From Gemmatimonadota bacterium (GTDB lineage: Bacteria > Gemmatimonadota > Gemmatimonadetes > Palauibacterales > KS3-K002): a stretch of DNA of 64,000 nucleotides. The notes beneath the pieces are model-generated. The model had not been told where the DNA came from, did no database searches, and saw only the letters and a list, made by a program, of their open reading frames with translations. The position numbers were made by a program, and so were the translations under genes. Every line of letters begins with the position of its first letter. Position 1 is the stretch's first letter. Where the stretch lies: assembly GCA_020344015.1 (NCBI GenBank), contig CP070812.1, forward strand, positions 3,579,225-3,643,224, given 5' to 3'. Shown here in pieces: positions 3,157-18,829 of the stretch.

Positions 3157-4546
3157 CTCCCCTCACCGCTTGGCTCACTGAATCGATGAACTCGGTTTCC
3201 TCGCCTGGCAGTACCGTCCGCGGGTCGAGGCAGAGCGCGCCGTCCCGCACGCGCCCGACGACCGCGGGTTGCACTCTGCGGCAGGCCGCCTCGAGCGCTC
3301 GCTCGGATCGACCGGGCACGGTGACCCGTAGGACCCAGGTCTCGAGCTGGAGCCCCGGGTACGAGCCGCCGCCGACCTCGGCGACGTCGGCCGCGACCTC
3401 GATCTCGGCGTCCGGACAGCGTTCGCGCAGGGCCCCCGCCAGACGCTCCGCCCGCTCGCGCAAGGCAACCGGGTCGGCGCCGATCATAGCCAGCGCTGGG
3501 ACCTCGGTTCTCGCAGCTTCCAGATCGCGCCATAGCCTGAGTGTCGCCTCGAGCGCGGCGATGGTCAACTTACCGACCCGCACTGCACGGAGCAGCGAAT
3601 TGCGGCGCAAACGTGCCACGAGATCGGCACTTCCGAGGACCACCCCAGCCTGGGGTCCGCCGAGCAGCTTATCGCCGCTGAAGGTCACGAGGTCGGCCCC
3701 GGCGTCGAGCGAGGCGCGAACGTTGGGCTCCCAGGGGAACCCGAAGGCGCGCTCGGCGTCGGGCAGCATCCCGGAGCCGAGATCGTGAACCACCGGCACA
3801 TCGTGGCGGCGCCCCACTGCGGTCAGCTCCTCGATGGAGACCTCGCTGACGAAGCCCGCCTGTTGGAAGTTGGAGCGGTGCACCTTCAGTAGAGCGCCGG
3901 TCTCCGGCCCTATGGCTTTCTCGTAGTCGCGAGCGTGCGTCCGGTTCGTGGCACCGACCTCTATGACCCGCGCCCCGCTCTTCGCCACGATCTCCGCCAC
4001 ACGGAACGTCTCGCCGATCTCGACCAGTTCGCCGCGTGAGACGATGACCTCGCGACTTTCAGCCAGCTCGTTGAGAGCGAGCACGACCGCGGCGGCGTTG
4101 TTGTTCACCACCAGCGACGCGTCTGCACCCGTGAGCTCGGCGATGATCGCTGCGCAGTGATCGTGTCGCGAGCCGCGCGAACCAGCCTCTAGATCGTACT
4201 CGAGATTGCTATAGCCGCGCGAGACGGCATCCAGCGCCGCCCGGGCAGCGTCCGGGAGTGGTGCCCGGCCCAGGTTCGTGTGCAAGGGGACGCCGGTCGC
4301 GTTGATCAAGTGGCGAAGCGAGGGCGTCGCCCCAGCCACCAGCTCGCGGCGCGTCGCTTCCACGATCTCGCAGGCTTCCGGCGCGACCGCCCGATCGCCG
4401 GCCACAAGTTCATCGCGGAACCCGTCGAGTGTGCGCCTCAGCGAGGTAACGACCAGCGAGCGGGGCCACGCGTCGAGTAGCTCGCCGAACTCCGGCGAAC
4501 CGAGCAGCGCATCTACGCCCGGCAACCCGCGCCGCGCGTCGTTCAC
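3149..4546 (-). CDS. selA: L-seryl-tRNA(Sec) selenium transferase
   Basis: SelA is a PLP enzyme that converts seryl-tRNA(Sec) to selenocysteinyl-tRNA(Sec) using selenophosphate. At 465 aa it has the family length, with the typical INATGVPLHTNLGRAPL segment near residue 82 and the PLP-binding Lys293 in SGDKLLGGPQAG. The GTG start follows GGGAGGGG and overlaps the preceding stop as GTGA. No selB, selD or tRNA-Sec was seen in the window, and no gene here shows an obvious in-frame TGA. It lies between an Ig-like lipoprotein and gmhB, with no functional link to either that I can see. Confidence 0.93.
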   Translation of the reverse strand: MNDARRGLPGVDALLGSPEFGELLDAWPRSLVVTSLRRTLDGFRDELVAGDRAVAPEACEIVEATRRELVAGATPSLRHLINATGVPLHTNLGRAPLPDAARAALDAVSRGYSNLEYDLEAGSRGSRHDHCAAIIAELTGADASLVVNNNAAAVVLALNELAESREVIVSRGELVEIGETFRVAEIVAKSGARVIEVGATNRTHARDYEKAIGPETGALLKVHRSNFQQAGFVSEVSIEELTAVGRRHDVPVVHDLGSGMLPDAERAFGFPWEPNVRASLDAGADLVTFSGDKLLGGPQAGVVLGSADLVARLRRNSLLRAVRVGKLTIAALEATLRLWRDLEAARTEVPALAMIGADPVALRERAERLAGALRERCPDAEIEVAADVAEVGGGSYPGLQLETWVLRVTVPGRSERALEAACRRVQPAVVGRVRDGALCLDPRTVLPGEETEFIDSVSQAVRGDG

Positions 4547-5877
4547 CGTCCCCTCCCTTCGGCGCCCGCCGTGTCGGGCGGAATCTCGGCTGGCTCTTCC
4601 GGCTCCAGCGGCTCCGGCTCGGGCTGCTCGAACGTCACCTCGCTGTCGCCCTGCAGACCGGTCAGATTGAGCAGCCGGTAAACGCGCACCAGATACGAGC
4701 CCGGCGGGATGGGCGCGGCGGCTATCACATAGAGGCGCCGGTCCGGCAGGACGGCTGGCTCCTGGGCTTCCTCCGTCGTCCCTTCCTCTTCCTCGGCGGG
4801 TGGCGTCGGCGGTACGGCAGCCGGCGGCTCCTGCTCGGCCGCCTCTTCCTCGGCCACTTCCTCTTCGACCGCTGCCTGCTCAGCCGCCTGGGCCGCTGCC
4901 GCGGAATCGCGCGCGGCGGCTTCGGCCTCGCTCCGAACCTGCTCGATGGAATCGCTCCAGATCGTGTAGCGCCAGGCGTGGTACACCGTGTCGAGGGCGA
5001 CCGGCGAGCTATCGGCGAGTGCGAGAACCTCGATGGCCTCAGTGCTCGTGGGCACGTCGGGATCGAGGTAGCTGTCGAAGCCCAGCTGGAGGACGAGCGA
5101 ATCGATGGGAGTAACCTCCACGAGCGCGGGGCCCAGGGTATCGTGCTTGAAGACCCGGAACTCCAGGGCGAGCGTGTCGGCCTGTCCCACGCTGACGATA
5201 AGCGTGTCCGACCGATCGAAGTCGTCGGCCCGCATGTTGTTGTTGAGGTCCTCGTAGCCGATGGCGTAGTAATCGCCGACCGGCAGCGTGCCGATGGTGA
5301 AGGCGCCGGAGCTATCGGCGATCGCGCCGTAACGGAGCGTGTCGGGCAGCAAGACCATGTCCACGCGGCCGTTCGGCAGTCGTTCCCCTCTTATCCGATC
5401 GATGACCGAACCGCTCGCCTCGTTCTCCGAGATGGGCATCCCGGTGGAGAGGATGTGATAGATCGGTTCTTCGATCCGATTGCGGAAAAGGTCCTGCACG
5501 ACCGGCTCGATGCGCACGTGGTAAAGCCGGTCGGGGACCCAGCCGGCCCGAGGGCGGACGCGCAGCTCGCGCTTCCCCTTGTCGACGTTGGGGCGCGGCT
5601 CGAACGGGTAGAGGATCGCGGCGATCTGCACGTTCTGCTCCGAGATCGACTCGTCGAACTCGAACTGGACCTTTTCCCTCTTGCCGGTCCAGGCAACGAC
5701 CGCGTAGCTGTCCGGGTACACGGCGATCAGCATCGGAGGGATCGAGTCCGGTGGGCCGCCCGGAGGTACCTGGACATTGGCGCAACTCTCCAGGTTGGCC
5801 AGGGCCAGCGCCGACAGGATGAGCCCTCCCGCGAGCAGGCTGGCGTGCGCCGCGCCGGTCCGCGGGAACCTAATCAC
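4543..5877 (-). CDS. Ig-like domain (Big_5-type) lipoprotein
   Basis: This 444-aa protein is probably an outer-membrane-anchored lipoprotein. The signal peptide ends in a lipobox, LANLESC. The mature start resembles the 'C-A-x-x-x-P-x-GGPxDxxPP' N-terminus of a Bacteroidetes family with a bacterial Ig-like (SbsA/Big_5) domain, here at about residues 45-145 including FEFDESI. A middle segment (about 150-235) looks like a carboxypeptidase-regulatory-type beta domain (SGAFTIGTLPVGDYYAIGYED). Residues about 315-385 form an acidic Glu/Ala/Pro-rich linker. The exact role is unknown. Its stop overlaps the selA start by 4 nt. Confidence 0.7.
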   Translation of the reverse strand: MIRFPRTGAAHASLLAGGLILSALALANLESCANVQVPPGGPPDSIPPMLIAVYPDSYAVVAWTGKREKVQFEFDESISEQNVQIAAILYPFEPRPNVDKGKRELRVRPRAGWVPDRLYHVRIEPVVQDLFRNRIEEPIYHILSTGMPISENEASGSVIDRIRGERLPNGRVDMVLLPDTLRYGAIADSSGAFTIGTLPVGDYYAIGYEDLNNNMRADDFDRSDTLIVSVGQADTLALEFRVFKHDTLGPALVEVTPIDSLVLQLGFDSYLDPDVPTSTEAIEVLALADSSPVALDTVYHAWRYTIWSDSIEQVRSEAEAAARDSAAAAQAAEQAAVEEEVAEEEAAEQEPPAAVPPTPPAEEEEGTTEEAQEPAVLPDRRLYVIAAAPIPPGSYLVRVYRLLNLTGLQGDSEVTFEQPEPEPLEPEEPAEIPPDTAGAEGRGR

Positions 5878-5880
5878 GGT

Positions 5881-8562
5881 CTAGTCACCCTCCAGGATCC
5901 TGCGCTTTTCGTTGACCTTCGCCAGCTGTTCCTCGAGGCCCCGCAGCTTCTGGCGGGCTTGCTCGACCACCTGGTCGGGCGCCTTCTTGACGAAATCCGC
6001 GCTACCGAGTCGCTTGCGCGAGCGTTCGACCACTGCTTCGAGCTCCGCGGCCTGCTTCTCGAGTCGCGCCCGCTCGCGCGCGAGATCGATGAGGCCTTCC
6101 AGCGGCACGTGTACCTCGGCCCCCGTCGAGAGAACAGCCATCGCCTCGGCACCACCGGTCTCGCCGTCGAAGGAGATAGTACTGATCCCAGCCAGCTTGA
6201 CCGTCGCCTCGCCCTCAGCAGCGATCGCGCCACGCAGCGCGTCATCCGCGGCCAATATCCGGACCTCGATCTGCCGGCCATGGGCGACGTTGTACTCGCT
6301 ACGGATGTTGCGGACCGCGCCGAGCATCTCGCGCAGCACGTCGAGCTGGGCCTCGGCCTCTGGATCGTTCCAAGCGGGCCGGGGCTCGGGCCAGGAGGAG
6401 ACCATGATGCTGGCGCCGGCGCGGTTCGGCAGCCTCAACCAGAGTTCCTCAGTGATGAACGGCATGATCGGATGCAGTAGTCTGAGACTGGTGTCGAGGA
6501 CCTCGCGCAGCACCGAGCGCGCCACGACGCGCGCCTCGGGGTCCGATTCGTTGTAGAGTCGCGGCTTCACCAGCTCGAGGTACCAATCGCACAGCTCGCT
6601 CCAGAAGAAGCGGTAGAGCTCGGCCGCCGCTTCATGAAGACGGAAGCGCTCGAGGTCGTGGGTCACCTCGCGGATCGCGCTGTTCAGCCGCGAGAGGATC
6701 CAACGATCGGAGAGCTCCAGCCGGCCGTGCTCCGGTATCGGGTCGACATCACCTTCCAGATGCGGCAGGGCCAGCCGGGCCGCGTTCCAAATCTTGTTGC
6801 CGAAGTTGCGGCCGACGTGGAAGGACTCTTCCAGGTCCTCGTAGTTGAGCTGCAGGTCGGCGCCGATGCCGAGCCCGTTCATCAAAGTGAAGCGGAGTGC
6901 GTCGGCGCCGAATATGCCGACGACCTCGAGCGGATCGATCCCGTTACCCAGCGACTTGGACATGCGGCGGCCGACGTGGTCACGGACCGTGCCGTGCAGG
7001 TAGACATCGTTGAACGGCACCGTGCCCATGAACTCGAGGCCGGCCATGATCATGCGGGCGACCCAGAAGAAGATGATCTCGGGCGCGGTGACCAGCGTGT
7101 GGCCCGGGTAGAAGGTGGCGAGATCATCGGTCTCGTCGGGCCAGCCCAGTGTACTGAAGGGCCAGAGCCACGACGAGAACCAGGTATCGAGGACGTCGGG
7201 GTCCTGCTCGATATCGTCGCTACCGCACTCGCTGCACGCCGTCGGATCGTCGTGCAGCACGAGCATCGCATCGCAGGAACGGCAGTACCAGACCGGGATG
7301 CGGTGACCCCACCAGAGCTGCCTCGAGATGCACCAGTCGCGGACGTTCTCGAGCCAGCCGACGTAGACGCCGCCCCAGTGCTCCGGCGTGAAGCGGATCT
7401 CGCCCTTGCGGAAGGCTTCCAGCGCCGGCTCGGCCAGCGGAGCCATCTTGACGTACCACTGCTCGGAGACCCGAGGCTCGATCATCGTGTGGCAGCGGTA
7501 GCAGTGGCCCACGGAGTGCATGTGCTTTTCGGTCTTCTCGAGCAGACCGGCTTCCTGCAACTCCTTGATCACGGCTTCGCGGGCGGCGAAGCGGTCCATG
7601 CCACGGAAGCGCTCGGGTACCGCATCGCTGAGCGAGGAATCGGGGTTGAATATGTCGACCTGATCGAGGTCGTGTCGTAGGCCAATCTCGAAGTCGTTGG
7701 GATCGTGCGCCGGCGTTACCTTGACGATCCCGGTGCCGAATTCGGGGTCGACGAAATCGTCAGCGATGACCGGAATCTCTCGCTCGGCCAACGGCAGCAG
7801 GGCTTTCTTGCCGAGCAGATCTTGGTGACGGTGGTCTTCAGGATGGATCGCCACTGCGGTGTCGCCCAGCATCGTCTCGGGACGCGTGGTGGCGACGACC
7901 AGGTACTTCCCTCCCTCGCCGATGATCGGATAGCGCTGGTAGTAAAGGGCGCCCTCGACCTCCTCGTGCTCCACCTCTTCGTTCGCCAGCGCCGTGGCGC
8001 AACGCGGGCACCAGTTGACGATGTACTCGCCGCGATAGACCAGACCCTTCTCGTACAGGCGGACGAATACTTCACGGACCGCCCTGCTCAGACCCGGATC
8101 GAGCGTGAAGGCAGTACGATCCCAATCGGCCGAGCTACCGATCGCCTTCAGCTGCTCGAGGATCGTCCCGCCGGTCTCGCGCACCCATCCCCAGACGCGC
8201 TCGACGAACGCCTCACGACCCAGATCCCAGCGCGTCCTACCGTCGGCGGCGAGCTGGCGCTCGACAACGTTCTGTGTCGCAATGCCGGCATGGTCGGTAC
8301 CAGGCACCCAGAGCGCCTCGCGACCCTGCATCCGGCGCCAGCGGATCAAGACGTCCTGGATCGTGTTGTTGAGGCCGTGCCCCATGTGGAGCTCGGCAGT
8401 CACGTTGGGCGGCGGCATGACGATGACATAGGTCTCCCGCGCGCTGCCCGGGTCGGCGCCGAAGTAGCCGCCCTCCGACCAGCGTCGATACGTCGGGTCC
8501 TCGAAAGACCGCGGATCGAATCGCGGAGGAAGCTCCGTGTTCTGCTTCTTGCCCTTTGCCAT
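5881..8562 (-). CDS. valS: valyl-tRNA synthetase
   Basis: ValRS is the class I enzyme that charges tRNA-Val. The HIGH motif is HMGH at about residue 59-62 and the KMSKS motif reads MSKSLGNG. A Cys-rich element (WYCRSCD then CSECG) sits before the catalytic domain's second half. The C-terminal ~70 residues form the expected coiled-coil arm rich in Arg, Glu and Lys. The ATG at 8562 (MAKGKKQ) is preferred; an upstream in-frame start at 8607 would add 15 residues not typical of the family. The resulting 893 aa is normal. It lies 4 bases upstream of the Ig-like lipoprotein gene. Confidence 0.97.
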   Translation of the reverse strand: MAKGKKQNTELPPRFDPRSFEDPTYRRWSEGGYFGADPGSARETYVIVMPPPNVTAELHMGHGLNNTIQDVLIRWRRMQGREALWVPGTDHAGIATQNVVERQLAADGRTRWDLGREAFVERVWGWVRETGGTILEQLKAIGSSADWDRTAFTLDPGLSRAVREVFVRLYEKGLVYRGEYIVNWCPRCATALANEEVEHEEVEGALYYQRYPIIGEGGKYLVVATTRPETMLGDTAVAIHPEDHRHQDLLGKKALLPLAEREIPVIADDFVDPEFGTGIVKVTPAHDPNDFEIGLRHDLDQVDIFNPDSSLSDAVPERFRGMDRFAAREAVIKELQEAGLLEKTEKHMHSVGHCYRCHTMIEPRVSEQWYVKMAPLAEPALEAFRKGEIRFTPEHWGGVYVGWLENVRDWCISRQLWWGHRIPVWYCRSCDAMLVLHDDPTACSECGSDDIEQDPDVLDTWFSSWLWPFSTLGWPDETDDLATFYPGHTLVTAPEIIFFWVARMIMAGLEFMGTVPFNDVYLHGTVRDHVGRRMSKSLGNGIDPLEVVGIFGADALRFTLMNGLGIGADLQLNYEDLEESFHVGRNFGNKIWNAARLALPHLEGDVDPIPEHGRLELSDRWILSRLNSAIREVTHDLERFRLHEAAAELYRFFWSELCDWYLELVKPRLYNESDPEARVVARSVLREVLDTSLRLLHPIMPFITEELWLRLPNRAGASIMVSSWPEPRPAWNDPEAEAQLDVLREMLGAVRNIRSEYNVAHGRQIEVRILAADDALRGAIAAEGEATVKLAGISTISFDGETGGAEAMAVLSTGAEVHVPLEGLIDLARERARLEKQAAELEAVVERSRKRLGSADFVKKAPDQVVEQARQKLRGLEEQLAKVNEKRRILEGD

Positions 8563-8662
8563 TGCCTGCAGATCCGTCCCCTGCCCGTCATCACACCGCG
8601 CCACCAAGACCGCACCGGGTCCGGTGGCATGTGCCGCGAGGGCGCTCGTCAGTGATGCAGGT

Positions 8663-8690
8663 AACTTATCTTGAAAGGACGGTGTGGCAA
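8663..8690 (-). promoter_or_regulatory. candidate sigma70-type promoter for valS
   Basis: On the minus strand TTGCCA (8685-8690) and TAAGTT (8663-8668) are separated by 16 bp, about 100 bp before the valS start. The match is moderate. Confidence 0.4.
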
Positions 8691-8714
8691 TTGCTGCAGG
8701 GCCCTAGGAACCGC

Positions 8715-9548
8715 TCAGTTCGCGCCGGTGGTGTCCCTCTTGGCCGCTCGCTCCGCCTCCTCGCGAGCCTTCCGCTCGCGAATCGCCCGGATCCGCTCGT
8801 CGAATTGGTCGTCGATCGCGCCCTGGCCCGCCTGCCGCTGGATCGCGTTCCAGTCGTCGATGCTTCCCTGGCGGCGGCGCGCCTCGGCCGGGTCGAGGCC
8901 GAAGTAGAGGGGGAGCGGCAACGTGATGCCGCCCAGGTGGATCTTGCCCGGCGAGATCCCCCACTCCTCACCCTCCTCGCCGATAGTCCAGTCGAGGCTT
9001 TCCAACTCGCGGGCCAGTTCGGCGGCCATGCTGTCGTCGTAGGCCTCCAGAACGGCATAGAGGCGGGCGCGGACCAACGCCACTCGCTCCGCCTCCGTCA
9101 GATCGGTGCGTCGCATGATCGGCGGCACGAGCCACAACCTCCAATCGCCCACCCGCGGGCGCAGTCGTTCGGCGGCGCTCACGTATGGCGTCGGTTCGAC
9201 CTCCGCTACCGTCGGTGTCTCCTCGGGCTCGGGCTCGGGCACCGGCTCGACCACTGGCCCCTCGACCACGACGACGTCGATGACGCGCATCCCCTGCTCG
9301 GGCACGACGATCGGAGTCGGCACATAGTAGGCGACATTCGGCTCGAGGTACCTGATGATCAGCGGCGATAGTCGGATGAATAGGATGTGGATCAGTACCG
9401 AGGCGATCAGGCCGACGGCGACGGCGCGTTCGTGACGCCGCACCCGCGAGCGCATCCGGGGCATCACGCGGCGATCGGGTCCAGCGGCGCGTCCGGCCTC
9501 TTCCTCGGGTGGCGCGCCCGGTGGTCGCAGCAAAGTCGTGAGAATCAC
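8715..9548 (-). CDS. single-pass protein with TonB-like N-terminus, function unknown
   Basis: I do not recognise the whole protein (277 aa). A basic N-terminus leads into one transmembrane segment at about residues 43-65 (VAVGLIASVLIHILFIRLSP), then a Pro/Glu-rich stretch at about 100-125 (EPVPEPEPEETP), the architecture of TonB/energy-transducer proteins. The C-terminal part (about 130-277) is Arg/Glu-rich and predicted helical, and does not show a recognisable TonB C-terminal domain. The GTG start at 9548 is uncertain; ATGs lie at about 9464. It is cotranscribed between an aminotransferase gene and valS. Confidence 0.55.
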   Translation of the reverse strand: MILTTLLRPPGAPPEEEAGRAAGPDRRVMPRMRSRVRRHERAVAVGLIASVLIHILFIRLSPLIIRYLEPNVAYYVPTPIVVPEQGMRVIDVVVVEGPVVEPVPEPEPEETPTVAEVEPTPYVSAAERLRPRVGDWRLWLVPPIMRRTDLTEAERVALVRARLYAVLEAYDDSMAAELARELESLDWTIGEEGEEWGISPGKIHLGGITLPLPLYFGLDPAEARRRQGSIDDWNAIQRQAGQGAIDDQFDERIRAIRERKAREEAERAAKRDTTGAN

Positions 9549-9584
9549 TGTGGTTGATACTCCAGACGCGCCATCCTGTTCCGG

Positions 9585-10745
9585 TTACAGCACTTTGGCG
9601 ACGCGCTGCGCCGCCTCCCTCAGCCGCTCCGCCGGCACGGTGAGCGCGACACGGAAGAACCCCTCACCGCCGCCGCCCATGCCGGTGCCCGGAAACAGAA
9701 CCACTCCGGACTCCAGGAGGATCCGGCGCGCGAACTCTACCGCCGGCTCACCGCCAGGGATGGGGACCCAGAGGTAGAGGGTCGCCTTCGGCGAATCGAC
9801 CTCGAACCCGGCCTCGCGGAATGCCTCTACCGCGGCGTCGCGACGTTCCTGGAAGATGGCCACCTGCTTTGGCACGAACTCCTCCCAGACATCCAGGCTG
9901 GCGACTCCTGCAGCCTGGCAGGCGAGGAATACGCCGGTGTCGTAGTAGACCTTTACCTTCGCTAGCGCCTGCACCGCCTCATTTTGCCCGGCCACCCAGC
10001 CGATCCGCCATCCGGTCATATTGAACGTCTTCGACAGCGAGTGGAACTCCACCGCTACCTCGCGCGCACCTTCATACTCAAGGACACTCGGCGGGCGATA
10101 ACCGTCAAAGGCGATTTCAGAGTAGGCGTTGTCGTTGATCAGCAGCAGGCCGTGCTGGTGGCAGAACTCGATCGCACGCTTGAAGTAGTCGTCGGACGCG
10201 ACACCGCCGGTCGGGTTGTTCGGGTAGTTCAGGTAGAGCAGCTTTGCCTTCTTCAGCTTGTTCGCCGGCACCTCGTTCCAGTCGAGCAGATACCCGTTAT
10301 CGCGCCGCAACGGCACCTCGATCACATCGGCGCCGAGCATGTGCGTGCCGCCGAAGTACGGATAGTAGCCGGGGTTCGGAATGATGGCGGCGTCGCCCGG
10401 ATCGAGATAAACGAGCGGCAGGTGCGCGATGCCTTCCTTGGTCCCGATCAGAGGCAGCACTTCGTCGAACGGATCCACGTCGACCCCGAAGCGCAGCTTG
10501 GTCCACTCGGCGATCTTGGTACGGAACTCGGGCAGTCCCCGCTGAAAGGGATAGCGGCTGAAGCGTTCTTTGGTTACCGCATCCTGTATTGCCCTTATCG
10601 TCTGGGGCGGTGGCATCTGGTCGGCGTCGCCCGCCCCCAGGTCGATGACGTCCACGCCCTTGTCGATCAGCTCTGCCTTGATCTTCGGGACATCGGCGAG
10701 CGCATAGGGCGGAAGGCTGGAAAACTGTTTCGAGTAGCTGGGCAT
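9585..10745 (-). CDS. PLP-dependent aminotransferase, LL-diaminopimelate aminotransferase type
   Basis: This is a fold-type I class I/II aminotransferase of 386 aa. Family features are the N-terminal IDLGAGDADQMPPP segment, YPFQRGLPEFR, the conserved NYPNNPTGG and the PLP Lys in SLSKTFNMTGWR. Overall it resembles the DapL2-type enzymes that transfer an amino group to tetrahydrodipicolinate for lysine and peptidoglycan synthesis, but specificity cannot be read from the sequence and other 2-oxo acids remain possible. The start at 10745 follows AAGAGG with 6-nt spacing. It is separated by about 120 bp from the preceding coupled envelope cluster. Confidence 0.8.
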   Translation of the reverse strand: MPSYSKQFSSLPPYALADVPKIKAELIDKGVDVIDLGAGDADQMPPPQTIRAIQDAVTKERFSRYPFQRGLPEFRTKIAEWTKLRFGVDVDPFDEVLPLIGTKEGIAHLPLVYLDPGDAAIIPNPGYYPYFGGTHMLGADVIEVPLRRDNGYLLDWNEVPANKLKKAKLLYLNYPNNPTGGVASDDYFKRAIEFCHQHGLLLINDNAYSEIAFDGYRPPSVLEYEGAREVAVEFHSLSKTFNMTGWRIGWVAGQNEAVQALAKVKVYYDTGVFLACQAAGVASLDVWEEFVPKQVAIFQERRDAAVEAFREAGFEVDSPKATLYLWVPIPGGEPAVEFARRILLESGVVLFPGTGMGGGGEGFFRVALTVPAERLREAAQRVAKVL

Positions 10746-10866
10746 CTGTGTCCTCTTCGATCCGGTTGATGCCGCAGCGAACGGTCCGCGGCGGCATGAC
10801 TTGGTGCGGGACGGCTGGAGCTTCCTGCAATCTTTAAAGCTAGCCAGCACCCTGAACGCGTGCCAG

Positions 10867-12126
10867 TCAGGTCTTCAGGTGCCTCTTCTTGGCCGCCGGG
10901 AACAGCACGTTGTTGAGGATCAGACGGTAGCCCGGCGAATGGGGGTAGAGATCGAGATCGGTCGGCGGGTCCCCGATCACGTGCTGGGGGTCTTCGGGGT
11001 CGTGGCCGCCCAGAAAGGTCCAGGTCCCGTCCCCGTGATTGCCGTGCAGGTACTTTACCCAGGGCGCGCCGGGCTCTTCGGCGAGCACGGTGACGGAAGG
11101 CTTGAGGTGCGAGCGACGGTAGCTCGTCGTCAGCCCGTAGAAGTCACGGATCACGCGCTCGTGGTTCTGGGTCAGCATGGTGGCGACCGGGTCGATCGTC
11201 GCGCTGAAATCGAACAGGCGGAAGGTGCCCAGTGGTTGCCGCATGGGAGTATTCACCAGGTGGCCATCGATATCACTGAAGGCCGAGAGGGCCGGTTCCG
11301 CGAAGACTGCGGCGCCCTCGAAGGCGAACGTACTCTCCCAGTTGAGGCGGGCGCTCGCGTCCACTTCGACCGCATCGCCGTCCGCATAGCTCGCCGCTAT
11401 GTCGACTCCCAGCGCCGCCAGCGCCAGGTCGATCGTCTCGGTCGCCGTGCACATGGCGAAGAGGAAGCCGCCGCCATCGACATACTCCCGAATCTTCACG
11501 GCTACCGCCTTCTTGAGACTCGGCGAGTCGGGTAGCCCGAACGCCCTCGCTACCCGGCGGTTGCGGGACACCTCCTCCTGCAGCCAGGCGGCGCCCGCGT
11601 ACGTCAAGTAGAACTTCGAGTACTGGCCGGTGAAATCTTCGTGGTGCAGATGCAACCAATCGTAGCGGCCCAGTTCGCCGCCCAGCACTTCCGGGTCCCA
11701 CAGTTCCTCGTACTCGATACCCGCGTAGCTGAGTGCCAGCGTCACCGCATCATCCCACGGCTGCGACCCGGGCGGCGTGTAGACGGCGATCCGCGGTGCC
11801 TTTTCCAGGACGACGGCCTCCATGTTCGAGCCGTCGATCTCAGCGCGTATCGCCGCCAACCGTGACGCCCCGACCGGCTCGACCGACACACCGCGGAGCG
11901 CCGCCTCGCGCCGGACCTCGGCCGCATCCGGTAGCAGGAAGGAGCCGGCACGGTAGTTGAGCAACCACTCGACGCGCTCGCCGCGACCCAAGACCCAGTA
12001 GGCGAGGCCATAAGCGCGCAAGTGATTCGATTGCTCGCCGTCCATCGGGGCCAGCAGATACTGGGCCTGCGCGGTCCCGGCGCTGGCCAGAACGACGACG
12101 ATCACCAATGCCAGCCGCCGACTCAC
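10867..12126 (-). CDS. secreted conserved protein ('asparagine synthetase B'-labelled family, not a synthetase)
   Basis: The 419-aa protein has a Sec signal peptide (residues 1-22, cleavage near AQAQ). It matches from memory a Bacteroidetes family commonly labelled asparagine synthetase B, sharing SNHLRAYGLAYWVL, YDWLHLHHEDFTGQYSKFY, GGGFLFAMCTATE, MLTQNH and FLGGHDPEDPQH. It has neither the N-terminal Cys of a glutamine amidotransferase nor the ATP-pyrophosphatase loop of AsnB, so that label is wrong. The GGGFLFAMC segment (Cys226) resembles the nucleophile-elbow region of class I GATase-like folds. The GTG start overlaps the TPR gene's stop as GTGA. The substrate is unknown; it is periplasmic or surface-exposed. 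Confidence 0.75.
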   Translation of the reverse strand: MSRRLALVIVVVLASAGTAQAQYLLAPMDGEQSNHLRAYGLAYWVLGRGERVEWLLNYRAGSFLLPDAAEVRREAALRGVSVEPVGASRLAAIRAEIDGSNMEAVVLEKAPRIAVYTPPGSQPWDDAVTLALSYAGIEYEELWDPEVLGGELGRYDWLHLHHEDFTGQYSKFYLTYAGAAWLQEEVSRNRRVARAFGLPDSPSLKKAVAVKIREYVDGGGFLFAMCTATETIDLALAALGVDIAASYADGDAVEVDASARLNWESTFAFEGAAVFAEPALSAFSDIDGHLVNTPMRQPLGTFRLFDFSATIDPVATMLTQNHERVIRDFYGLTTSYRRSHLKPSVTVLAEEPGAPWVKYLHGNHGDGTWTFLGGHDPEDPQHVIGDPPTDLDLYPHSPGYRLILNNVLFPAAKKRHLKT

Positions 12127-13910
12127 GACCTGGGGACCTCCTCTCGCAGTTCCGCCAGCCGGCGACGCCCGATGGGCGTCAGCGCGCTCTCCGGGTACTC
12201 GATGATCAGCTCTTCCAGCAGGGCTATCGCCTCGGCGCGCCGTCCGTTCAGCGCCAGAGCCTCGGCCAGCATCATCATCGCAACCGGCGCCTCGCCGGAT
12301 TCCGGGTAACGCTCGCCGAGGCGCCCCAGGACAGTTTCCGCACCGTCCAGCGCGTTGCCGGCAATCGCCAACTCGCCGGCCCAGAGGAGGAGCGCCGGGC
12401 GAGCGGGCGAAGGTGTGGCCCGCTGGAGGCCGCGAACCAGTTCGTCGTGGGCTTCCAGCGGGCCTTCCTCTAGGTTCCGCCGGTGAGCCGCCGCCGCCGC
12501 CCGAAGCTCCGCCGCGCTGCCGTGTCGCAGGAACCCGAGGGTGCGCAGCGCCTCGGCGCGCGCCGCTCCACTCAGACGAGCCGCGGCCACCTCGAATCCG
12601 AGGCGCGCCTCCTCGTAGTCGCCGCCGTAGAAGGCCAGAAGGGCGCCCGTCAGCATGAAGGTAGTCGCGACCGTGGGATCTGCACCGGCATCGCTTACGA
12701 GCTCTAGAACCCTAGCTGCTTCCTCCGGCTGGCCGCGCTGTAGGCTCGCATGGGCGACGACGGAGACCAGCGAGGGAAACTCGTCGTCGTCTTCGTAGAT
12801 CCGGGCATAATCCTCGAGCATGTCTCGTGCGTCGGCGTGACCGGCCGCTGCGCGGATGCGGATCAGCAGAGCACTCGCCCAGCGGTGGGTCGGCGTGCCC
12901 GCATCGGCTCGCTCCACGAAGTCGTCGAGCGTACCCTCAGCCGCTGCGGTATCCCCGACGCTCAGATCGTACTCGACGATGCGGCGTGCGACTTCCCAGC
13001 GGGAAGTGTCGGCCGCCAGTGAGCCCAGCATCTCACGGTAGGCCCAGTCCAGAAGTGCCGGCTGCGCCAGATCGGTGGCGACCTCCGAGAAGCGTGCCAA
13101 GAACTCCTGGCGCTCGCGACCTTCGAGTTCATCGGCCAGGGCCTGTGCCTTTCGGCGCGCGACCTCAGGTAGCCCTGCGTAAAGCGCGGCGATTGCTGCC
13201 AACTCGCGTTGCTCGGCTGGTCCCCCGTCGGCCAGCCGCGCCAGCAGCGCTCCAGCGGCGGGGCGCGCGGCGGGTCCCAAGGTGTCGAGCTTGTAGCCGA
13301 CCACATCGCGGCCGACGCGCGGAGAGAAGTCGAGGATGACGATCCAGAGGTCGGCAGCCAGGGCCCAGCGGCGCTGCTGCAGGTAGATGTCGGCGAGCTC
13401 TGAAGCAAGCGTTGTGGGGTCCTCGACCGAGTCGAGCCCGCGCCGCAGCACGCGCTCGGTCTCCACAAGTGACCCCTCACGCCGAAGCGCTATCCCATAC
13501 TCGCGGTAGGCGGCCTCGGATCGCGGTGCCTCAGCCAGCCAGGCCTCCCCAGCCTCCCTGAGCTGCGCCTTCGCGCCGAGATCGACCAGCACACCGAACT
13601 GCAACTGCCGCAGTGCCGGCGACGTCGGAGCGACTTTCACCGCGCGCTCCAGGACCGGGAGCACGTTGCGCAGGGTACCCTGTCGGCGATAGATGCGGAC
13701 GGCAGTGGCCACCGCGCTTGGCTCGGCCGGCCATTCAAGGAGCAGCTCGTCCAGCGCTGCCTGGGCGTCCGACAACTGGCCCACCCGTTCGAGCGACTCG
13801 ATCCGCCGCATCTCCTCCCGGAACTGCTGCCGCTGCTCATCGGTCTGCGCCGCGGCGCCAGGCGCGAGTAGCAGCCAGGCGGTCATCCCGAGGGCGAGCC
13901 TACGAGCCAC
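12123..13910 (-). CDS. secreted TPR-repeat protein
   Basis: This 595-aa protein has a signal peptide (MARRLALGMTAWLLLAPGAAAQ) followed almost entirely by helical tetratricopeptide-like repeats. Examples are the repeats around residues 35-120 (LDELLLEWPAEPSAVATA, LPVLERAVKVAPTSPALRQL) and near the C-terminus (ALNGRRAEAIALLEELIIEYP). It is probably a periplasmic scaffold. The GTG start overlaps the DUF4175-like gene's end by 11 nt, and its own stop overlaps the next start, so it is translationally locked into the rsmI-DUF4159-DUF4175-TPR-'AsnB-like' unit. The binding partner is unknown; the two flanking products are natural candidates. Confidence 0.75.
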   Translation of the reverse strand: MARRLALGMTAWLLLAPGAAAQTDEQRQQFREEMRRIESLERVGQLSDAQAALDELLLEWPAEPSAVATAVRIYRRQGTLRNVLPVLERAVKVAPTSPALRQLQFGVLVDLGAKAQLREAGEAWLAEAPRSEAAYREYGIALRREGSLVETERVLRRGLDSVEDPTTLASELADIYLQQRRWALAADLWIVILDFSPRVGRDVVGYKLDTLGPAARPAAGALLARLADGGPAEQRELAAIAALYAGLPEVARRKAQALADELEGRERQEFLARFSEVATDLAQPALLDWAYREMLGSLAADTSRWEVARRIVEYDLSVGDTAAAEGTLDDFVERADAGTPTHRWASALLIRIRAAAGHADARDMLEDYARIYEDDDEFPSLVSVVAHASLQRGQPEEAARVLELVSDAGADPTVATTFMLTGALLAFYGGDYEEARLGFEVAAARLSGAARAEALRTLGFLRHGSAAELRAAAAAHRRNLEEGPLEAHDELVRGLQRATPSPARPALLLWAGELAIAGNALDGAETVLGRLGERYPESGEAPVAMMMLAEALALNGRRAEAIALLEELIIEYPESALTPIGRRRLAELREEVPRS

Positions 13911-16900
13911 CGGTGCCCTCCCGAGCGTTGAGCCGGTCGAAGTACTCGAGGATGAGACGACGGATCGCCGGCGGGTAGCGACTCAGCACGTCGCTCGCCG
14001 GATGTGGATATGCCCGGCCACGCAATAGCCCGGGCGGTAACTCGCCCGGTCGCAGCACCTCGACGTCGGTAGGTCGCTCAGCACGTCGCTCCCGCTCGAA
14101 CTCGTCCCGCTCGAGGGTGCGACCCGCATCGAGCAGTCGCTGAAAGAGCCTGTTCTGCCGCTCGAGGATCTCTTCGTCCAGCCTTCCCTGCTCGAGCTGC
14201 TGCGCCAGATCCTCTGCCTCCCTCTCCAACGCGTCGAGCTGGCCGAGCACCTGGCCACGCGGGCCGAGCGACTGGTTTATTGCGCCCAGGTCCTGCGCTA
14301 TCGCCCGTTGTTGGTTTGCCAGGCGCTGCAGTTCACGTAGTAATGCGTCGCCCAACGAGCCCGGCGTGATGCCCCCCAACTCCTGGTTCAGAGCGCCCTG
14401 CTGCTCGGCCAGCTGGCCGAGTCGCGCCAGCGCTTCCTGGAGCCCGGTACCCGACTGAGCCATCGCCGCCGCATCGCCGGCCTGCATCAAGCGGTACGCC
14501 AGCTCGGCCAGCCCTTCGCTGGCGCCGTCGCCCAGGCGCCAGTCCGGGGGCCCGGCACGACTGGCGTCGGCCATCTGGCCCACCAGTTCCTCCATCGCCG
14601 CGCCTATCTCGGCCGCCGCCTGCGCCAACCTGGGATCGACGAGCAACGACGACTCCGCGGCATCAGTGAGCTGGTTCTCGACCTGCTGCACCGCGCTGCG
14701 CATCGCGACCTGGTCGGACATGGCGTCCGAGTCTCCTCGCTCAGCCGCCGAGCTCAGCCGCTCATTCAGCTCGCGCTGCCGCCGCGCGAGCTCGAGCGCC
14801 TCCGCCTGGGCCCGCCCCATCGCAGCGACCACATCCTGGCGCCAAGCCTCCTGCATCTCCTGGCGGCCCTCCCGCAGCCCCGAGGCCGCTCGCTGCATCT
14901 GCGCCAGCGCCCGCAGCGAAGCTCCCCGCGCCTCGCGAGGCCGGCTCGGCAGACGGCCGGCCACCTGCTCGTCGGATCCGGCCGCCTCCGACGCCGCGCT
15001 CTGCGCCGCGCTCGCTCGCTCGGCCGCCCGCTCCTCCAGCATGGTCGCCAGCTCTTCAGCCAGCTCGTTCACCGCACGCGCTAGCTCGCCCGCCCGCGCC
15101 CCGAGCTCCGCGGCTTGCCGCGACAGCGGCCCCGCCAGCGAGTCGGCGACCTCCCGACCGCCCGCTGCGGCTGCCGCGTCGGAAACAGCATCGGCGAGCT
15201 CTTCCTGCGCCTCGACCAACTCCTCCGCCTGCGTCTCTAGAGTCAGGAACTGCTGCTCCAGCGCGGCGCGGCGCAGTAACTCGACGGCGCGCTCGACGCG
15301 TGCCCTGAAATCGACGCTACCCTCGCTCAGTTGGCGAATCGCCTCGCGGATCTGATCCGGATCGAGCTGTACCAAGGCCTCGCGCAATTCCTCGAACCGC
15401 TCCTGCAGTTCGGGCGTGAGCAGGCGCTCGAACAGCGACTCGATCTCGGCCAACCGCTCCAGGACGCTCTCGTCATTCAATCCGGCGCGTTCGATGCTCT
15501 CCTGTAGCTCGCGGAGCGACTGCGAGATCTTGCGTGAGGTCTCCAGCAGACTCTCAGCCTCCTCCAAGGCACGACGCGCTTCTTCCGTCTCTCGGAACTC
15601 GACGCCACTCTCAGCGCGCTCCGGCGCCAGATTCGTCCCGGGTGGCGGCTGGATCTCGGTCGAGCGCTCCAGTGCCTCGATCGACTCCTGATGCTCCCGC
15701 GCCCGCTCCGCCAGGCTCTCGGCATCCTCCACGAGGTCGCGGGCGTCGCTGATGGCACGCTCGCGGACTTCGTCCAGGCTCGGCAGCCGCAGGACGTACT
15801 CACGACTCATCCCGATCTGAGGATCGGGAGCGTTGTCGTAGGCGCGGACGAAGTAGCGCAGGGTATCACCGGGCAGGAATCCGCGTCCGCGTGCATCGAT
15901 CAACGCAGCCAGATTGGCTCGCGGCATATCGGAGCCGATGGGCAGCGCTTCGACCTGTTCAGGCCAGCGCTCGCCCCAGGCCGAGACACGCCAGCTCACG
16001 AGCTCGACGAGAGCGAGACCGTAATCGTCGCCGACCTCGACGAGCAGCGGTTGCGTCATGTCGATGCTGAGAAGCGTATCGACGCCTGGGTACGTTATCC
16101 GGACCCGCGGCGCGCTGTCCGCTACGGCCAGAAAACGGAGGGAGTCGGGATTGCCTTCGAGCGCTTCTCCCTGCGAGCCGACTATGTCCCAGCCCCAGGT
16201 CCCCGACGTCACGGCAAACGAGGAGCGGAAACGACGGGCATCACTGACCACGAACGGGATCGTGCGGCCGCGGGAGGAGGTCAGTGCCGCGCGCTCCACC
16301 GGTCGGGTCACGACGCCGCCGACGGTGGCCCGAGTGCCGTCGGGCACCGTAATCACGGCCGGCAGGTCGGAGAACACCTCCGTCTCACGGCGTGTGTGAG
16401 GCGGAAAATGGAGATCGATCCGCAGATCGATGAGCAGAAGCGGATCGATGGTCGCCACGCGCAACGTGTCGCTGAGCGCGCCGTCCGGCGCCATCGCCCA
16501 GATCGCTAGCGGCGCTTCGACCCGCGGCACCACGGCCTCGGCACGTCCTTCGCTAATCCCCAACCAGCGCCGCTGGGCCACCGCGCCGCGCGGCCGCCAG
16601 GCCAACTGGACCGAGTCGCGCAACGGCGCTTCGACGCGCACCCGCAGGTCGCGCCCGCGGCGGATCTCTCGGTCGGCATCCAGACGCACGGGAGGGAACG
16701 GTGGCGCAGAGAGGTGACGAACGGGGTGCAGCACGGCAGCCCACGCCGTGACCGCCTGCTCCCGCGCGCTCAGCCAGATAGCGAGGGACGCGACGAGCGC
16801 GACGAGCGCGAGCGTCGCCGCGACCGCTGCGTGGGCACGTGCGGCACGGGCGACGGCACTGCCCAGCTCGGCCGGGCCAAAACCCTCCAGCGCCTTCGCC

Positions 16901-17283
16901 AGGCGCGACCGGTGCAACTCGACAAGCGAGCGCGAGGTACCCGGCCTTTCCAACCCGGGCTCCAGAGCGCCGCGCACCGACCCGCGCGGCAGCCCGACCC
17001 GCTCTTCGATCTCCGCTGCCGCCGCTTCCCGGTTCCAGCGCGATGCCCTGACGGCGAGGCGCCACACCCATGCGGCCGCCACGGCGACCGCCGAGGTCGA
17101 GAGCACCAGCGGTAGGACGGAAGGCCTCTGCCAGAGCGGGCTGGCTCCGGCCAGCCAACTGAACAGCAGCAGGCCACCAGCGGCCGTCAGGGCGCCGCCC
17201 ACGGCGGCCTGGGCAAGCTGCAGGGCTACGCGCCGCCACAAAGCGCGGACGCGGCTCTCGGGAGAAGGCGCGGTGTGCGTCAT
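13900..17283 (-). CDS. DUF4175-like large membrane protein with periplasmic coiled coil
   Basis: The 1127-aa protein has three predicted transmembrane segments at about residues 20-47, 55-78 and 150-172. They are followed by a beta-rich region (about 190-510) containing DDYGLALVELVSWR and GDTLRYFVRAYDN, which is the DUF4175-type Ig-like portion. Beyond about residue 515 it is a very long Glu/Arg/Gln/Ala-rich coiled coil (for example EQQGALNQELGG, QQRAIAQDLGA) up to about 1080. The layout suggests an inner-membrane anchor reaching far into the periplasm. The start overlaps the DUF4159 stop as ATGA. The function of the family is not established. Confidence 0.75.
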   Translation of the reverse strand: MTHTAPSPESRVRALWRRVALQLAQAAVGGALTAAGGLLLFSWLAGASPLWQRPSVLPLVLSTSAVAVAAAWVWRLAVRASRWNREAAAAEIEERVGLPRGSVRGALEPGLERPGTSRSLVELHRSRLAKALEGFGPAELGSAVARAARAHAAVAATLALVALVASLAIWLSAREQAVTAWAAVLHPVRHLSAPPFPPVRLDADREIRRGRDLRVRVEAPLRDSVQLAWRPRGAVAQRRWLGISEGRAEAVVPRVEAPLAIWAMAPDGALSDTLRVATIDPLLLIDLRIDLHFPPHTRRETEVFSDLPAVITVPDGTRATVGGVVTRPVERAALTSSRGRTIPFVVSDARRFRSSFAVTSGTWGWDIVGSQGEALEGNPDSLRFLAVADSAPRVRITYPGVDTLLSIDMTQPLLVEVGDDYGLALVELVSWRVSAWGERWPEQVEALPIGSDMPRANLAALIDARGRGFLPGDTLRYFVRAYDNAPDPQIGMSREYVLRLPSLDEVRERAISDARDLVEDAESLAERAREHQESIEALERSTEIQPPPGTNLAPERAESGVEFRETEEARRALEEAESLLETSRKISQSLRELQESIERAGLNDESVLERLAEIESLFERLLTPELQERFEELREALVQLDPDQIREAIRQLSEGSVDFRARVERAVELLRRAALEQQFLTLETQAEELVEAQEELADAVSDAAAAAGGREVADSLAGPLSRQAAELGARAGELARAVNELAEELATMLEERAAERASAAQSAASEAAGSDEQVAGRLPSRPREARGASLRALAQMQRAASGLREGRQEMQEAWRQDVVAAMGRAQAEALELARRQRELNERLSSAAERGDSDAMSDQVAMRSAVQQVENQLTDAAESSLLVDPRLAQAAAEIGAAMEELVGQMADASRAGPPDWRLGDGASEGLAELAYRLMQAGDAAAMAQSGTGLQEALARLGQLAEQQGALNQELGGITPGSLGDALLRELQRLANQQRAIAQDLGAINQSLGPRGQVLGQLDALEREAEDLAQQLEQGRLDEEILERQNRLFQRLLDAGRTLERDEFERERRAERPTDVEVLRPGELPPGLLRGRAYPHPASDVLSRYPPAIRRLILEYFDRLNAREGTGGS

Positions 17284-17984
17284 AAGGGCTTGCGCTGCGC
17301 CACGGCATAGGCAAACAGGTTCACACCCATCCGCAGCGCCTGTTCACGGATCTCAACCGGATCGTCGTGTACCTGTGGGTCCTCCCAGCCATCGCCCAAG
17401 TCGGACTGATAGCTGTAGAAGACCATGAGCCGGCCCTCATGGAACAGTCCCAAGCCCTCCGCCGGCAAGCCATCGTGTTCGTGGACCTTGGGCAACCCGT
17501 CGGGGAGCGGGTGAACGATTCGGTAGACGGGATGGTCGAGCGGGACGGCAACGAGCTCCACCTCCGGGAACAGGAGCCGCAGTTCCCGGCGGAGCGACTC
17601 ATCCATCCCGTAGTTGTCGTCCGCGTGTAGGAAACCACCCGCCAACAGGTACGCCCGAAGTGCGGAGAGCTCCGCCTCGTTGAACCGTACGTTACCGTGA
17701 CCCGTCATGTAGACATACGGGTAGTCGTGCAGGTCCGGACTCAACGGCGTGACCACGGCCTCACGCTCGGCCACCGGCAGGCGCGTGTCTCGTGCGATAC
17801 GCTGCAACAGGTTCGGCAACGACGATGGGTTCGCGTACCAATCGCCGCCCCCGTCGTAGTGGAGCCGCGCTATGGTGGGCTGGGTACGGTCCGCCGCCGC
17901 CGGCGACTGTGCGCGGCCCGCCTCCGGGTGGAACAGCAGCGCGATGAAGGCACCCCAGGCCAGTCTGCTCAGCCTCAGTTTCAA
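17280..17984 (-). CDS. DUF4159-domain secreted protein
   Basis: This is a DUF4159 protein of about 234 aa. Signature segments are RLHYDGGGDWYANPS, YPYVYMTGHGNVRF, GGFLHADDNYGMDESLRREL and SDLGDGWEDPQVHDDP. DUF4159 is considered to have a GATase/ThuA-like fold. An N-terminal hydrophobic stretch (WGAFIALLF) followed by AGRAQ acts as a signal peptide. The start is uncertain: a TTG at 17984 overlaps the rsmI stop and lies right behind GGAGG, while longer readings run implausibly through rsmI. It is followed with a 4-nt overlap by the DUF4175-like gene, a neighbour seen with DUF4159 in other phyla. Confidence 0.78.
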   Translation of the reverse strand: MKLRLSRLAWGAFIALLFHPEAGRAQSPAAADRTQPTIARLHYDGGGDWYANPSSLPNLLQRIARDTRLPVAEREAVVTPLSPDLHDYPYVYMTGHGNVRFNEAELSALRAYLLAGGFLHADDNYGMDESLRRELRLLFPEVELVAVPLDHPVYRIVHPLPDGLPKVHEHDGLPAEGLGLFHEGRLMVFYSYQSDLGDGWEDPQVHDDPVEIREQALRMGVNLFAYAVAQRKPL

Positions 17985-18829
17985 CCCTCCTGCGTCACCT
18001 CGAGCGCGATCGCGTAGGCGCGGTTGCGCTCGAGGCCATGACGCTCGCGCAGTGCGCGCACTATTTCCTTCGACGTGGCACCTCGTTCGGCCAAGACACG
18101 TGCATCTGCGCGGGCTGCATCCTCGAGTTCCTCCGCCGATGCCTCGGGTGCCGCCGCCAGACAAACAACCACCTCTCCTAGCGGTGTGTGCTCGTTGTAG
18201 TATGCCGCAACCTCACGCAGCGTCCCCCTCACGAACTCCTCGTGGATCTTCGTCAGTTCCCGGGCGACCACGACGCCGCGTTCCGGACCTAGCTGCCCAG
18301 CGAGCTCCTCTAGCGTGCCGACTAGGCGCTGCGGTGACTCGAAGAGCACCGCCGTGTGACGCAGTGTGGCGAGTTGGGCGAGGGTTTCGCGGCGACGGCG
18401 CCCGCTGCGCGGCAGGAACCCGAAGAAAGTGAACGGCTGGACATCGAGGCCCGAGCCCACCAAAGCCGCCAGGGCGGCGGACGGGCCCGGGACAGGCACG
18501 ACTCGGGCGCCGACCTCGATCGCTGCCCGTACGAGACGCAGACCGGGATCGGAGATCAGCGGCGTACCCGAGTCGGCAACCAGCGACACCGTCTGGCCTG
18601 CTTCAAGGGCGACACGCGTCTCGGACGTCCGGGCAGCCTCGTTATGCTTATGAAAGGACTTCAGGGAGCGAGGCTCGATCGCATAGTGGGCGAGCAAGAC
18701 GCGGGTCCGTCGGGTATCCTCGGCCAGAATGATGTCGCTCTCGCGCAGCGACTGCTCCGCCCTGTGCGTCATGTCGCCGAGATGGCCGATAGGCGTGCTG
18801 ATGAGATAGAGAGTGCCTATCCTTGTCAT
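17981..18829 (-). CDS. rsmI: 16S rRNA (cytidine(1402)-2'-O)-methyltransferase
   Basis: RsmI 2'-O-methylates C1402 in the ribosomal P site using SAM. The 282-aa protein shows all class III tetrapyrrole-methylase-like motifs: LYLISTPIGHLGDMT at the start, AEDTRRTRVLL, SLVADSGTPLISDPG and VPVPGPSAALAAL. The start ATG follows GAGG at short spacing. It is the first gene of a minus-strand series continuing into DUF4159, DUF4175-like, TPR and the 'AsnB-like' gene; the stop overlaps the DUF4159 start. An upstream inverted heptamer array and terminator separate it from trxA. Confidence 0.95.
   Translation of the reverse strand: MTRIGTLYLISTPIGHLGDMTHRAEQSLRESDIILAEDTRRTRVLLAHYAIEPRSLKSFHKHNEAARTSETRVALEAGQTVSLVADSGTPLISDPGLRLVRAAIEVGARVVPVPGPSAALAALVGSGLDVQPFTFFGFLPRSGRRRRETLAQLATLRHTAVLFESPQRLVGTLEELAGQLGPERGVVVARELTKIHEEFVRGTLREVAAYYNEHTPLGEVVVCLAAAPEASAEELEDAARADARVLAERGATSKEIVRALRERHGLERNRAYAIALEVTQEG

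Follow-up and report, generated by a model that had tools for sequence, protein, structure and literature searches.

A probable four-gene cell-envelope module of the FCB superphylum in a Gemmatimonadota genome

We describe four adjacent genes in a stretch of 64,000 nucleotides, referred to below as the window, from a Gemmatimonadota bacterium (GenBank assembly GCA_020344015.1, contig CP070812.1, positions 3,579,225 to 3,643,224). They encode a DUF4159 protein, a DUF4175-type inner-membrane protein, an exported TPR protein and an exported protein here called AsnB-like, and they lie behind the 16S rRNA methyltransferase gene rsmI. With a probability that we put at roughly 0.9, the four constitute a single functional module of the cell envelope. 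A functional unit had already been proposed in a preliminary description of this DNA, and it gains support from a survey of gene neighborhoods, in which the gene order recurs, and more tellingly from the loss of the genes together where they are unlinked.

Co-inheritance in Bacteroidota

Bacteroidota often carry the four genes in dispersed form. Judged from listed coordinates, the DUF4159 and DUF4175 genes are adjacent in 17 of 43 genomes and the TPR and AsnB-like genes in 10 of 20; in one Flavobacterium genome (G150) all four are far apart or on different contigs. The presence of AsnB-like and DUF4159 genes is concordant in 61 of 61 genomes, 44 of which have both and 17 neither. DUF4175 was detected in all 43 AsnB-positive genomes scored and in none of eight AsnB-negative ones, and the corresponding figures for the TPR protein are 20 of 20 and 0 of 8. 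When mapped on a tree of RpoB sequences from an outgroup and 29 of the surveyed Bacteroidota genomes, the 17 negatives require at least five independent losses, one in a clade of 13 genomes and the others in single genomes (G161, G166, G171 and G192). Since there were at least five joint losses and the genes are unlinked, as in the Flavobacterium, their co-inheritance cannot be put down to linkage. An assembly artefact was considered as the cause of gene absence and rejected, as the contigs of G161, G166 and G192 (3.9, 2.85 and 5.1 Mb) equal or approach whole genomes. The same joint losses contradict the view that these are four independent envelope genes that are neighbors by chance, which we regard as very improbable even though strict overlap of genes, the feature that first set this cluster apart, is ordinary in operons and is shared here by rsmI.

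The distribution also bears on whether the module might serve type IX secretion or the gliding apparatus in the FCB group. SprA was found in 44 of 44 AsnB-positive Bacteroidota genomes and is missing from 14 of the 17 AsnB-negative ones, and the source genome itself has a SprA-like frame of 2072 residues (locus L211, G000:C1:3167500-3174500; SprA_N PF14349, E 5.8e-13). However, SprA, which served as the contrast marker, is retained with strong matches in G166, G171 and G192, which are without all four genes, so that a strict co-occurrence fails. Within Gemmatimonadota, too, one genome has a SprA match but no AsnB-like gene (G010) and another has the AsnB-like gene but no SprA match (G089). A role in type IX secretion or gliding is therefore rather unlikely. 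Matches to type IX translocon-like SprA also occur in other Gemmatimonadota genomes.

In 15 loci, mostly of Flavobacteriales, dnaB is a neighbor of the AsnB-like gene, and in many Flavobacteriales it immediately precedes that gene (L123, L133, L139-L142, L146, L148, L150, L157, L166 and L167). We considered dnaB as a recurrent extra partner in Bacteroidota and set it aside as a local arrangement.

Gene order in Gemmatimonadota and other phyla

The AsnB-like gene was found in 134 of 150 Gemmatimonadota genomes, and gene order was surveyed in 56 loci drawn from the positive genomes. The order rsmI-DUF4159-DUF4175-TPR-AsnB is usual in the class and was seen in nearly all of these loci; at the four junctions, in that order, the overlap is exactly four nucleotides in 31 of 46, 35 of 47, 17 of 43 and 31 of 44 loci. 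Departures from this arrangement are instructive. The DUF4159 gene is displaced about 10 kb downstream in family f2, the DUF4159-DUF4175 and TPR-AsnB pairs are on separate contigs in family f10, and the TPR protein is shortened to about 285 residues in three loci (L057, L071 and L079) that keep the remaining module intact. Gemmatimonadota genomes that lack the AsnB-like gene also lack the DUF4159 subtype scoring above 200 bits and DUF4175 proteins scoring above 600 bits, the fragmented genome G131 being the exception.

Species genomes were scanned with the AsnB-like alignment, and the survey of other phyla rests on the best 80 matches. Among these, relatives from outside Gemmatimonadota show about 50-57% identity. 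Besides Gemmatimonadota, the matches come from Eisenbacteria, Krumholzibacteriota, Marinimicrobia, Cloacimonadota, Kapabacteria, Bacteroidota, Latescibacterota, Calditrichota, WOR-3, KSB1, Zixibacteria and further lineages. The order DUF4159-DUF4175-TPR-AsnB appears again, free of rsmI, in Marinimicrobia, Krumholzibacteriota, UBP1 and several other lineages; in Latescibacterota, KSB1 and Eisenbacteria it is incomplete or interrupted by contig ends. Only in Gemmatimonadota does rsmI adjoin the block, and it is absent from the loci read in other phyla, where the block recurs without it. We therefore view rsmI as a passenger peculiar to Gemmatimonadota and the block of four genes as old, and rsmI drops out of the cluster of five as it was first drawn. 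The four-gene set is most likely ancestral to the FCB (Bacteroidota-Gemmatimonadota) superphylum.

The AsnB-like protein

The AsnB-like gene (10867..12126, minus strand) encodes 419 residues. The AlphaFold2 (AF2) model of the protein has a pLDDT of 85.8 and a pTM of 0.87, and a Foldseek search with it returned 35 matches at E ≤ 0.001, headed by proteins resembling glutamine amidotransferases (GATases) and by GH42-type enzymes. The class-I GATase-like proteins STM3548, STM1381, lin1909 and SpuA were matched at E values from 5.5e-7 to 4e-4. The model thus identifies the protein as a predicted class-I GATase fold, which agrees with the earlier suggestion that the last gene product might be GATase-like.

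Across all 135 AsnB-like sequences compared, three residues do not vary: Cys226 (in the motif GGFLFAMC), His375 and Glu378 (in His375-Asp-Pro-Glu378). The residues D29, D126, H159, H162, E163, D164, D287, D376 and D379 are likewise invariant. The order Cys ... His-x-x-Glu matches that of class-I GATases, save for one extra residue, and we propose Cys226, His375 and Glu378 as the catalytic triad. Fold and residue order are shared with STM3548, STM1381, lin1909 and SpuA, from which the AsnB-like protein differs in being exported, in having extra segments within its 419 residues, in matching no Pfam family, in an identity of only 10-15% and in having no synthase partner domain. A search of the PDB for a sequence relative found none, and scans of 54 members against Pfam and NCBIfam assigned no family.

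In the window the protein begins with a Sec-type signal, as do most relatives. About 20 AsnB-like proteins, some of them from Gemmatimonadota (L037, L041, L043, L058, L093 and others), carry a twin-arginine signal instead (MKRREFL/MRRRDFL). Because of these signals we conclude that the protein is exported, and in the twin-arginine cases exported in folded form.

The name AsnB is a misnomer. The protein has nothing but the label in common with asparagine synthetase B, since it is exported and has the class-I fold, and the scans of the 54 members revealed no asparagine synthetase domain. Other candidate assignments were also rejected: no match to the AsnB-like protein was found on plasmids, the DUF4159, DUF4175 and AsnB-like proteins had no PHROG match that would indicate phage origin, and no PADLOC model of anti-phage defence was matched.

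The DUF4159, DUF4175-type and TPR proteins

The DUF4159 gene (17280..17984, minus strand) encodes a protein of 234 residues with a probable signal peptide, which matches PF13709 with 219.9 bits against a gathering cut-off of 25.9 (E 3.3e-65). It belongs to an FCB subtype in which the motifs GGGDWY, GHG and HEHD are invariant among 71 sequences, few rows excepted, and from which the two other DUF4159 copies in the genome are set apart by the absence of these motifs. The nearest structure is that of the uncharacterized protein Hoch_4089 (PDB 4i66; phmmer 1.7e-14), a member of the same family that lacks GGGDWY and HEHD and has no assigned function. A search of the available literature found no paper on DUF4159 and one on DUF4175, and a paper on signature proteins of the Bacteroidetes-Chlorobi group mentions neither DUF4159 nor DUF4175.

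The DUF4175-type protein (13900..17283, minus strand; 1127 residues; P0003) does not itself match PF13779 above the Pfam cut-off. However, 13 of its 21 aligned relatives do, and hhalign comparison with a paralogue from the same genome that exceeds the cut-off (P0010) gave a value of 8e-43, which indicates that the two proteins are homologous. The family identities originally given to both DUF proteins therefore stand, in this case by way of relatives and paralogue. Hydropathy predicts three transmembrane helices, and the AF2 model (pLDDT 79.8, pTM 0.52) has three Ig-like domains at about residues 200-500 followed by a long helical region (503-1063). This predicted run of alpha-helix behind Ig-like domains takes the place of the very long coiled coil described previously. 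The TPR protein (12123..13910, minus strand; 595 residues), which consists of TPRs throughout, was recognized by Pfam TPR families, by its family profile and by its position, which is the same in the loci of relatives. Taken together, these predictions support the view that all four products are exported or membrane-bound.

The only studied protein with a DUF4175 label that we found is AdvA of Acinetobacter baumannii, an essential divisome protein that localizes to mid-cell and whose depletion leads to filaments (PMC7481262). By analogy, the module might act in cell division or peptidoglycan remodelling, and a membrane-anchored periplasmic amidase-type fold would fit the cell wall as its site of action. 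We assign this a low probability. The DUF4175 label of AdvA, a protein from Pseudomonadota with two predicted transmembrane helices, lies upstream of about residue 203 and covers a much shorter region than in the window protein; the likeness is one of label, and homology to the Ig-like and helical part is hypothetical. The module is, moreover, missing from whole clades of relatives.

Comparison with a MoxR-type locus in the same genome

The genome has a second locus with proteins of these families (L170, 2041-17132; G000:C1:2463040-2478131). Genes for MoxR, DUF58, BatA, DUF4175 and two DUF4159 proteins are tightly packed on one strand, together with genes for a VWA/GATase-like protein that has a weak GATase1_like match, a TPR-peptidase MA protein and a C13 (legumain-like) peptidase. 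Such MoxR-DUF58-BatA-DUF4175-DUF4159 loci, of Bat/aerotolerance type, have DUF4159, DUF4175 and TPR proteins in common with the window module. In contrast to them, the module has no AAA+ ATPase, DUF58 or VWA protein, it includes the AsnB-like protein, and its DUF4159 protein, which scores about 220 bits as against about 150, represents a different subtype marked by the GGGDWY and HEHD motifs. Neither MoxR nor DUF58 nor VWA proteins were found among the scanned neighbors in the window or as recurrent neighbors in the loci of other phyla, and membership in the MoxR/Bat class fails on this point. From its gene content the module looks like a MoxR-free and VWA-free branch of that architecture to which the AsnB-like protein has been added.

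This kinship makes it possible, though in our judgment doubtful, that the module represents a derived chaperone system of the Bat/MoxR type, in which the DUF4175, TPR and DUF4159 proteins aid the folding or assembly of envelope proteins and the AsnB-like protein, in the manner of the GATase-like domains found in VWA proteins, binds without acting as an enzyme. The adjacency of DUF4159 and DUF4175 paralogues to MoxR, DUF58 and BatA, and the weak GATase1_like match of the VWA protein, are what such a chaperone would lead one to expect. The lack of MoxR, DUF58 and VWA in the module is not, and the extreme conservation of the AsnB-like protein, with its many invariant His, Asp, Glu and Cys residues, makes an active site likelier than a scaffold.

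Proposed function

We give somewhat less than an even chance to the proposal that the module works as a membrane-anchored periplasmic enzyme complex with the AsnB-like protein as its enzyme; the physical complex, the division of labor, the catalysis and the substrate class are all inferred. The DUF4175-type protein would be held in the inner membrane with its three Ig-like domains and long alpha-helical stalk facing the periplasm, and the exported TPR solenoid may be an adaptor. The DUF4159 and AsnB-like proteins would be two GATase-fold subunits. The latter would be catalytic by way of its Cys-His-Glu set; what the fold most naturally suggests as its target, though this is a guess, is an amide- or ester-type bond within a polymer or protein of the envelope. 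The DUF4159 protein, with Asp in the place of the nucleophile, may be a regulatory, binding or metal-site partner.

Several observations weigh against this scheme. Against solved GATases the AsnB-like model reaches a TMq of just about 0.3, which we attribute to the extra segments, and the triad is proposed from residue order and conservation. The GATase fold of the DUF4159 protein is putative: its profile match to the AsnB-like protein is weak (15 columns, 41% probability) and covers only the strand before the elbow, with Asp standing at the Cys position. Finally, a Cloacimonadota genome (G157) has the AsnB-like and DUF4159 genes with no clear DUF4175 or TPR match; the four genes are thus not inseparable, since two are kept alone.

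With more reserve still, we suggest that the complex modifies an envelope component specific to the FCB group, that the ancestor shared by the superphylum already had it, and that it has several times been lost whole. Equally tentative is its description as a previously unrecognized assembly in which a DUF4175 scaffold carries the AsnB-like enzyme, a nucleophile-less DUF4159 partner and a TPR adaptor. The AsnB-like protein is about 50-57% identical between FCB phyla and has invariant residues of catalytic appearance, yet it is in no Pfam or NCBIfam family. The module joins four unknown families, and lineages that have lost the whole set, along with those that keep it scattered, such as Flavobacterium, make its function directly testable in bacteria that are tractable and non-pathogenic.

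Gene organization in the window

The rsmI gene (17981..18829, minus strand; 16S rRNA 2'-O-methyltransferase, TIGR00096, E 1.1e-65) is an operon passenger outside the module. Reading the DNA at the junctions confirmed that the five genes overlap stop to start: rsmI and DUF4159 by TTGA (17984-17981), DUF4159 and DUF4175 by ATGA (17283-17280), DUF4175 and TPR by 11 nucleotides (13910-13900), and TPR and AsnB-like by GTGA (12126-12123). The DUF4159 start was placed at the TTG at 17984 because it fits the TTGA overlap; the mechanical open reading frame of 294 residues is too long. Overlaps of four nucleotides between stop and start are an ordinary feature of operons. For this reason, and because the cytoplasmic RsmI is included, the overlaps are in themselves no argument for the stoichiometric complex that they had been taken to suggest. 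Pfam and TIGR scans of the window proteins were firm for RsmI and DUF4159 and generic for the TPR protein; they gave no family for the 1127-residue membrane protein or the AsnB-like protein.

The same strand continues downstream (4543-10850) with genes for an LL-diaminopimelate aminotransferase-like protein, a proline-rich protein resembling TonB, valyl-tRNA synthetase and a Big_5 protein. The aminotransferase (DapL) or the synthetase (ValS) follows AsnB-like in many relatives.

The window is free of N. Elsewhere in the assembly rpoB is in two pieces (L209 and L210; G000:C1:831288-836855 and 3782000-3793000). Its N-terminal part crosses a gap of 100 N into an unrelated SusD-like frame, and its C-terminal part, adjoining rpoC, is beside another gap of 100 N. 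The split points to a chimeric scaffold join.

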